Assembly (NCBI RefSeq): GCF_014218295.1
Contig: NZ_AP023287.1
Coordinates: 2,604,001 to 2,668,000 of the forward strand
Origin: Mycolicibacterium litorale
GTDB lineage: Bacteria; Actinomycetota; Actinomycetes; Mycobacteriales; Mycobacteriaceae
Reading direction: 5' to 3'
Length of the DNA: 64,000 bases
The notes beneath the pieces are model-generated. The model had not been told where the DNA came from, did no database searches, and saw nothing but the letters and a program-made list of their open reading frames with translations. This document shows positions 16,947 to 18,475 of this stretch, piece by piece. The first letter of the stretch is position 1; every line of letters begins with the position of its first letter. The position numbers and the translations under genes were made by a program.

Positions 16947-16965
16947 GGGGCTTGCGGCAAGACCC
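16947..16965 (+). promoter_or_regulatory. rifamycin-associated element (RAE)
   Basis: The 19-bp sequence GGGGCTTGCGGCAAGACCC is an imperfect inverted repeat matching, from memory, the rifamycin-associated element described upstream of rifamycin-inactivation genes in actinobacteria. It lies 82 nt before ATG 17048 of the Rox-like gene. TTGCGG inside it (16952-16957) could serve as a -35 box with CACAAT (16977-16982) 19 nt on. Rifampicin induction of the gene is inferred from this element. Confidence 0.8.
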
Positions 16966-17047
16966 GGGTGATCCCCCACAATCGTCGGTCCGTGCCGAAA
17001 CAGCCCGTTTCGCAGGGGCTTTCATGACCGATATGGACAGGGGATCG

Positions 17048-18475
17048 ATGTTCGACGTGACCATTGCCGGCGGCGGGCCGACCGGGATGATGCTGGCGGC
17101 CGAGCTGCGACTGCAGGGGGTCCGGGTGCTGGTGCTGGAGAAGGACGAGGAGCCGGCTCCGTATGTGCGCTCGCTGGGGCTGCATGTGCGCAGCATCGAG
17201 GTGATGGATCAGCGAGGTGTGCTCGAGCGGTTCCTGGCGCACGGGCAGCGCCACCCGTTGGGCGGTTTCTTCGCCGGCATCGTCAGGCCCGCACCGGAGC
17301 GGTTGGACACCGCACACGGATACGTTCTCGGCATCCCGCAGAACGTCACCGACCGTCTGCTGGCGGAGCGCGCCGCCGAACTCGGCGCCGAAATCCGGCG
17401 CGGCCACGAGGTGGTCGGGCTCAGCCAGGACGACGACACGGTCACCGTCGAGACCGCCGACGGAAGCCGACTCACGTCGCGCTACCTCGTCGGATGCGAC
17501 GGCGGCCGCAGCACCGTGCGCAAGCTGGCCGGCGTCCGGTTCCCCGGGGAGCCGAGCACGGTGGAGACCCTGCTCGGCGAGATGAGGATCACCGAGGACC
17601 GCGCGACCGTCGAGTCCGTCGTCGCGGAGGTCCGCAAGACGCAGCTCCGTTTCGGGGCCATGCCGCTCGGCGACGGCATGTACCGCATCGGTGTGCCCGC
17701 TGCGGGGTTGGCCGAGAACCGTGACGCCCCAACGACACTGGAGGAGTTCCGGCAGCAACTGCACGCCGTGGCAGGCACCGATTTCGGCGTTCACTCGCCG
17801 CGGTGGCTGTCCCGCTTCGGAGACGCCACGCGGCAGGCCGAGCGCTACCGCGTGGGGCGGGTGCTGCTGGCCGGCGACGCCGCGCACATCCACCCGCCGA
17901 CCGGCGGGCAGGGGCTGAACCTGGGGGTGCAGGACGCCTTCAACCTCGGTTGGAAGCTGGCGGCGGAGGTGAACGGTTGGGCGCCGCCGGAGCTGCTCGA
18001 CAGCTACCACACCGAACGTCATCCGGTGGCCGCCGACGTACTGACCAACAGCCGCGCTCAGATGGAGTTGCTGCTGCTCGAGCCCGGTCCGCAGGCGGTG
18101 CGCCGGCTCCTTACCGAACTCATCCAGTTCGACGAGGTGAACCGCTACCTGATCGAGAAGATCACCGCCATCAGCGTCCGCTACGACTTCGGACCCGGGC
18201 ACGATCTGCTCGGCCGGCGCCTCCGGGACATCCCGTTGACCCGGGGGCGGCTCTACGAGCGGACCCGCACCGGGCGGGGTCTGTTGCTCGACCGGACGGG
18301 TCGGCTGTCGGTGGCGGGGTGGACCGACCGGGTGGACCATGTCGTGGACGTCAGCGACGACCTGGACGTGCCTGCGGTGCTGCTGCGGCCCGACGGTCAC
18401 ATCGCCTGGGTCGGCGACGATCAGGACGACCTGGCGGAGCACCTGCCGACGTGGTTCGGCGCATCGAACCGGTGA
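17048..18475 (+). CDS. rox: FAD-dependent monooxygenase, rifampicin monooxygenase-like
   Basis: A 475-residue class A flavin monooxygenase. The FAD-binding GGGPTG is near residues 8-13, YLVGCDGGRSTVRK holds the DG motif near 150, and LAGDAAHIHPPTGGQGLNLG is the GD motif near 276. The start MFDVTIAGGGPTG and the length match rifampicin monooxygenases (Rox/RIFMO), which hydroxylate the naphthyl ring of rifamycins with NADPH and O2 and so open the ansa macrocycle. The rifamycin-associated element upstream supports this over other phenol hydroxylase-type members. ATG 17048 has AGGGGA just upstream; ATG 17024 is an alternative. Confidence 0.8.
   Translation: MFDVTIAGGGPTGMMLAAELRLQGVRVLVLEKDEEPAPYVRSLGLHVRSIEVMDQRGVLERFLAHGQRHPLGGFFAGIVRPAPERLDTAHGYVLGIPQNVTDRLLAERAAELGAEIRRGHEVVGLSQDDDTVTVETADGSRLTSRYLVGCDGGRSTVRKLAGVRFPGEPSTVETLLGEMRITEDRATVESVVAEVRKTQLRFGAMPLGDGMYRIGVPAAGLAENRDAPTTLEEFRQQLHAVAGTDFGVHSPRWLSRFGDATRQAERYRVGRVLLAGDAAHIHPPTGGQGLNLGVQDAFNLGWKLAAEVNGWAPPELLDSYHTERHPVAADVLTNSRAQMELLLLEPGPQAVRRLLTELIQFDEVNRYLIEKITAISVRYDFGPGHDLLGRRLRDIPLTRGRLYERTRTGRGLLLDRTGRLSVAGWTDRVDHVVDVSDDLDVPAVLLRPDGHIAWVGDDQDDLAEHLPTWFGASNR

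Follow-up and report, generated by a model that had tools for sequence, protein, structure and literature searches.

The rifampin monooxygenase gene rox (Rox/RIFMO) of Mycolicibacterium litorale lies behind a rifamycin-associated element (RAE), a 19-bp palindrome, and the sequences of this region and of its relatives suggest that the element is the common -35 region, or dyad, of two divergent, mutually exclusive promoters, one (sense) directed towards the gene and the other (antisense) away from it. The genome consists of one 5.63-Mb contig, and the stretch analysed, hereafter called the window, comprises its positions 2604001-2668000 (64 kb). The RAE, GGGGCTTGCGGCAAGACCC, ends 82 bp upstream of rox. 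Such a location is already known, and the window copy is a new member, like the RAE of actinomycetes described before rgt, rph, rox, arr, and helR in the 19-bp palindrome, the gene families, and the overlap with the sense -35. In the RAE accounts searched, however, the palindrome is given no promoter that runs against the sense one, whereas such a promoter is conserved here. Together with its +1 hairpin it would be the new part of the account, as neither was met in the literature search; the search covered open-licence literature, and an earlier description in the key RAE/HelR papers is possible.

The palindrome is imperfect, with the arms GGG/CCC and CTTGC/GCAAG around a central G, exactly as described in the initial annotation of this region, and with a G/A mismatch at palindrome positions 4 and 16. 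It is the sole match with up to 3 mismatches in the window, besides its own reverse complement, and since shuffles lead one to expect 0.04 such matches, its occurrence at 16947-16965 is not due to chance. Three forward sites within one mismatch of GGGGCTTGCGGCAAGNCCC, which we take to be the RAE consensus, are present in the entire genome, before arr, rox, and helD/helR; the genome-wide search proposed in the initial annotation thus added two copies to that in the window. With the pattern read backwards as the control, allowing up to 2 mismatches gave 3 control hits in the genome, so hits with two mismatches mean little by themselves; the RAE combined with the sense -10 at a fixed distance was found at 3 sites, against 0 in the control. 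The identification of the element as an RAE is borne out, as it agrees with the 19-bp palindrome that precedes relatives of rox, arr, and helR, stands upstream of a rifamycin-resistance gene, and is also found before rox in 74 of the 80 named loci described below.

Two sets of sites were compared. The named rox loci (n = 80) were picked by the protein and the RAE alone, no -10 being used, and form a free test of both the sense and the antisense -10; six of them (L020, L031, L036, L055, L071, and L072), in which no RAE with up to 4 mismatches was found in the 500 bp searched, are outside the 74. The second set was collected with a pattern of the RAE plus the sense -10, which 164 of the 394 Actinomycetes genomes sampled contain, as do 131 of 198 genomes of the genus (control 0 in the matches looked over in both samples). 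It is the fetched part of the pattern matches, among the matches listed, and comprises 183 unique sites, of which one was dropped owing to too little upstream sequence, leaving 182. In these, 16 of the 19 RAE positions are conserved at >=90%, most of them fixed, like the sense -10, by the collecting pattern itself, and only the antisense side is freely tested. The two sets may overlap in species, and the counts ignore relatedness.

In the aligned named rox loci, conservation around the RAE extends well past its 19 bp and includes the plus-strand block CAACnTATAGC, the end of which lies 7 bases upstream of the element. Read on the minus strand, the block gives TANNNT at 19 bp from TTGCCG, mirroring the sense TTGCGG-19-CANNNT, and -10 elements are thus found both ways at a promoter-like spacing, as in a bidirectional promoter. 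The antisense TANNNT is present in 74/74 named rox loci with an RAE, the upstream background being 0.14%. Among the 182 sites, plus-strand ANNNTA occurs at -17 to -12 in 178, while no other offset between -50 and -6 has it in more than 5, and the expectation from base composition is 0.56%. Per gene class, the antisense -10 was found in 80/80 helR sites, 44/45 of those of rox and related monooxygenases, 23/23 of arr, 15/15 of rph-like, and 3/3 of ABC genes, and in 13/16 others; of these 16 genes, 12 look by eye like Rgt glycosyltransferases, and two that were checked scored best to Rgt, below the Rgt cut-off. The misses are L132, L181, L202, and L211, the first three being one-base shifts by eye. 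Furthermore, the antisense -10 was seen by eye in all 7 loci fetched from genomes that do not belong to the class, and GG occupies antisense +1/+2 in 158 of the 182 sites. Judging from the loci compared, the antisense -10 is general, while the putative terminator at +1 is not.

As for the sense strand, the initial annotation had read TTGCGG and CACAAT as -35 and -10; this part stands, with a spacer of 19 bp, but a single strand had been considered and the second promoter missed. CANNNT, with C as its first base, occupies the sense -10 place in 72 of the 74 named rox loci. TANNNT promoters of M. smegmatis are reported to yield more transcript than VANNNT ones (PMC6448022), and the antisense -10 was therefore graded as the stronger class; the weakness of the sense -10 looks as if selected, the antisense -10 having the consensus T. 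Two other candidates were dropped, TATAGC as a sense -10, because its sixth base is C and it has no fitting -35, and P1, a sense promoter further upstream, as something common to RAE sites, since plus-strand ANNNT is scattered between -50 and -25 (at most 13/182 per offset).

Table 1. Features of the rox upstream region in the window and of the gene itself
Feature	Position	Strand	Basis
Hairpin, perfect 18-bp arms CACTCGGCCACCGCAGGA, loop of 5 (GGCGA), without T-tract	16790..16830	.	sequence, script
Predicted antisense transcription start, GG on minus strand	16922..16923	-	GG conserved at +1/+2
Putative antisense -10, TACATT (plus strand AATGTA)	16930..16935	-	conserved TANNNT in relatives
RAE palindrome GGGGCTTGCGGCAAGACCC, putative common -35/dyad of two divergent promoters	16947..16965	.	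sequence, pattern search, 182-site conservation
Sense -35, TTGCGG	16952..16957	+	sequence; 19 bp from -10
Putative antisense -35, TTGCCG	16955..16960	-	sequence; mirror image of sense -35
Sense -10, CACAAT, weaker CANNNT class	16977..16982	+	sequence; conserved in named rox loci
Predicted sense transcription start	16988..16989	+	inferred, 6-7 nt after -10
Rifampin monooxygenase Rox/RIFMO gene, 475 aa	17048..18475	+	profile and structure-database matches

In 85 of 256 sites (4.0% in shuffles) the minus strand has, downstream of the antisense promoter, a hairpin followed by a T-tract, and 77 of these 85 hairpins, which have 43 distinct 5' arms, start exactly at the predicted antisense +1. A loose search without the T-tract condition was uninformative (245/256 real sites versus 90% of shuffles). 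In a second count, a +1 hairpin with a score >=7 was present in 85/182 sites (10.3% in letter shuffles), and one with at least 5 T among 8 bases in 31/182 (0.14%). When the hairpin start was shifted by 8-20 bases, 12-17 of the 182 sites had a hairpin, none with a T-tract, smaller shifts giving intermediate values; the same kind of test at the sense leader +1 gave hairpins in 7/182 and T-tract hairpins in 0/182. The arms of 82 hairpins (60 distinct arm pairs) pair with their own partners at 94.8% and with partners swapped between loci at 75.2%, a comparison biased towards own arms, as the hairpins had been picked for stems. The coincidence of the T-tract hairpins with the start predicted from the promoter argues against the very improbable reading in which the upstream TANNNT block is no promoter and instead forms an outer half of a larger site bound by a protein, although conservation is unbroken from about -28 through the RAE. 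In three loci from genomes outside the class (L305, L308, and L309) a further dyad, GTCCACWGCGGAC, is situated upstream of the antisense hairpin, ca. 60-70 bp before the RAE.

The gene behind the RAE codes for a rifampin monooxygenase of the Rox/RIFMO type, an identity supported by profile and structure matches, and its product is predicted to oxidize rifamycin. The gene begins with MFDVTIAGGGPTG at 17048, further in-frame ATG codons being present at 17024 and 17033. Its product scores 898.8 bits with the curated equivalog model of rifampin monooxygenase NF033145 (cut-off 800) and 728.9 bits, below the cut-off of 950, with the narrower Iri model NF000343. The solved proteins closest to this product are RIFMO of Nocardia (5kow, 772 bits) and Rox of S. 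venezuelae (5vqb, 771 bits), both aligned over residues 1-473, that is along the full length, and the next one reaches 394 bits. The initial annotation had proposed a RIFMO-like monooxygenase, and the alignment from the first residue with both enzymes agrees with it; a place among phenol hydroxylases, the outcome that would have contradicted that proposal, is at odds with the 71.7 bits obtained with the phenol hydroxylase 1foh. In its distribution the gene differs from Rox/RIFMO by being sporadic in the genus, as only 6 of 148 sampled genomes, this one being the best, exceed the family cut-off, and all six have an RAE with both -10s. These counts make it highly improbable that the protein is a flavin monooxygenase acting on another substrate, with the RAE there by coincidence, even though the fold is common (with E <=0.001 as the limit, the model has a match in 148/148 genomes sampled from the genus).

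A second Rox-like family is present in the genus (ca. 464-494 bits; L322-L341, e.g., L324), below the rif_monoox cut-off, with an RAE upstream in 19 of the 24 loci looked at (L318-L341). In 17 of these 19 the script finds the antisense -10; in L332 it read the wrong palindrome strand and the antisense -10 is visible by eye on the other one, while L326 is without it. The family is a candidate for a second rifamycin-monooxygenase group of the genus. The long minus-strand open frame of 1014 codons opposite rox and the next genes (window positions 16928-19972) has probably arisen merely from the high GC content of the coding DNA.

Of the other two genes behind an RAE in this genome, one codes for a rifampin ADP-ribosyltransferase, Arr, which scores 257 bits with NF000318 (cut-off 250) and is nearest, among solved structures, to 9iaf and 2hw2 (253 bits). 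The other codes for a HelD/HelR protein, whose closest solved structure is 6yxu (762 bits) and whose best NCBIfam models are HelD_MYCSM (886 bits) and motor_HelR_2 (859 bits), both below their cut-offs, only 481 residues having been compared. The similarities of Arr and HelD suggest Mycobacterium in the broad sense as the source. With RAE sites before arr, rox, and helD/helR, the predicted rifamycin-response set of the genome is composed of three genes, for ADP-ribosylation, oxidation, and polymerase rescue. In three other genomes (L196, L198, and L200; 75-76% identity to the first) the RAE precedes a gene coding for a DrrA-like ABC transporter ATPase, possibly a rifamycin efflux component under RAE control.

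According to a review (PMC10719064), the -35 of promoter 2 of helD is overlapped by the RAE, and induction was lost when half of the element was deleted; Arr of M. smegmatis is reported to be 5.6-fold up with rifampicin (PMC13246000). The sensing factor and mechanism are called unknown in a review of 2022 and again in a research paper of 2026. For rox, the chances seem about even that the RAE is the dyad centre of a divergent promoter pair, with antisense as the default direction and rifamycin turning transcription to sense; more tentatively, and with the odds slightly against it, the RAE of Actinomycetota at large may be a polymerase-orientation switch, in which the drug would be sensed by an exclusive divergent pair rather than by a simple operator. 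Both promoters would use the RAE as the -35 region, with 19-bp spacers, and owing to this common -35 a single polymerase at a time could be bound, facing one way or the other. The antisense promoter, having the stronger -10 (TANNNT), would lead to no gene, and its RNA would in part of the relatives begin with a terminator-like hairpin. In the absence of the drug polymerase would be mostly loaded in the unproductive antisense direction and the gene would be quiet, while with rifamycin the balance would move to sense and the enzyme be made, most likely through a putative factor binding the RAE dyad and reacting to rifamycin or to drug-bound polymerase. What the sequences show is the identity of the enzyme, the RAE, and the divergent arrangement with its conservation; the activity of both promoters, competition between them, and an effect of the drug on their balance are inferred.

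Sensing without any factor, with drug-bound polymerase stopping the antisense promoter and thereby freeing the sense one, is an unlikely alternative modelled on the helD/pps alarm of B. subtilis, in which rifampicin is sensed by a strong antisense promoter paired with a weak sense one, with the core behaviour reproduced in vitro (PMC12802891). The promoter strengths, the 19-bp antisense spacer, and the rifamycin-resistance genes behind are alike in the two systems, and no linked regulator stands out in the rox flanks. The B. subtilis promoters, however, are convergent, lie 39 bp apart, and can both be occupied, whereas those of the RAE were found to diverge from a common -35, so the collision mechanism is not transferable as it is. 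The B. subtilis authors themselves set the actinobacterial RAE genes apart, naming an unidentified factor as possible (PMC12802891).

Several results weigh against the orientation switch, the first two of them also against factor-free sensing. A competition model, in which the site was free or was occupied by polymerase in the antisense or the sense direction, with or without bound drug, gave a sense drug/no-drug ratio of at most 1.00 in all combinations of 12 parameter sets with 4 drug fractions; polymerase-only occlusion in its simple form, yielding no induction, was rejected. Moreover, of 74 RAE genomes with a readable site, 6 have as their sole RpoB match a protein with a substitution of a resistance type, S531N in five and H526N in one, and this speaks against the polymerase as the sensor. 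Five loci from such genomes were compared; a long rox frame is kept in three of them and a helR-like frame in one, while L204 (genome G330, RpoB S531N) has the RAE and both -10s but a frame with only the first rox-like residues. Together with the invariant outer arms of the palindrome, these two results favour a dyad-binding factor within the orientation switch; the palindrome is symmetric, though, so a bound factor alone cannot pick the direction. A sense promoter P1 mapped upstream at M. smegmatis helD (PMC10719064) falls outside the proposed scheme, and plus-strand ANNNT at -23, within the conserved block, in 93 of the 182 sites could be another sense -10. Finally, only 1/23 arr sites has the +1 hairpin (0/23 with a T-tract), and the window copy has none at its antisense +1. 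The first strong hairpin there lies at 16790-16830, between the upstream gene and the RAE and ca. 90 bases past the antisense +1, and is a possible end of the antisense RNA.

If a factor is involved, the RAE might also be a plain operator bound by a putative rifamycin-responsive activator or repressor, the antisense promoter being a by-product and the hairpins stopping useless RNA, an explanation that is possible but somewhat unlikely. It would account for the near invariance of the 19-bp dyad including its outer arms (seen in the rox loci too, and not only in the sites where the pattern fixed most positions), mycobacterial promoters are described as lacking a -35 consensus (PMC6448022), and an unidentified factor is named as possible not only by the B. 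subtilis authors but also in PMC10719064. A by-product, on the other hand, would not be expected to have the same -10 bases, the same spacing, and the same start dinucleotide in one gene class after another, and no regulator gene recurs beside rox in more than 4 of 80 loci. This was found by clustering the open frames in flanks of up to 3 kb per side of the 80 named rox loci. The largest cluster was an ABC ATPase (7/80 loci), and among the 12 largest only one, of the XRE type by eye, could code for a regulator; with just 4/80 loci, a linked regulator gene as the sensor was dropped.

The closest general parallel to the proposed switch is provided by the symmetric promoters of E. coli, at which polymerase binds in two exclusive orientations and strong activation one way can repress the other direction (PMC12825309). 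Symmetric DNA and exclusive orientations are common to both; in the RAE the symmetry is that of a long, nearly invariant -35 dyad, and the antisense product is no gene.

The opposing promoter stands at a fixed spacing before rox, arr, helR, rph-like, and rgt-like genes, also outside the class, and its conservation makes the question of rifamycin sensing concrete, as that of polymerase starts on each strand with and without the drug. The orientation switch, if true, would explain the palindromic nature of the RAE and tie the intrinsic resistance of Actinomycetota to rifamycins to competition between promoters, and it would be the actinobacterial answer to the problem which Bacillus solves by convergent promoters.
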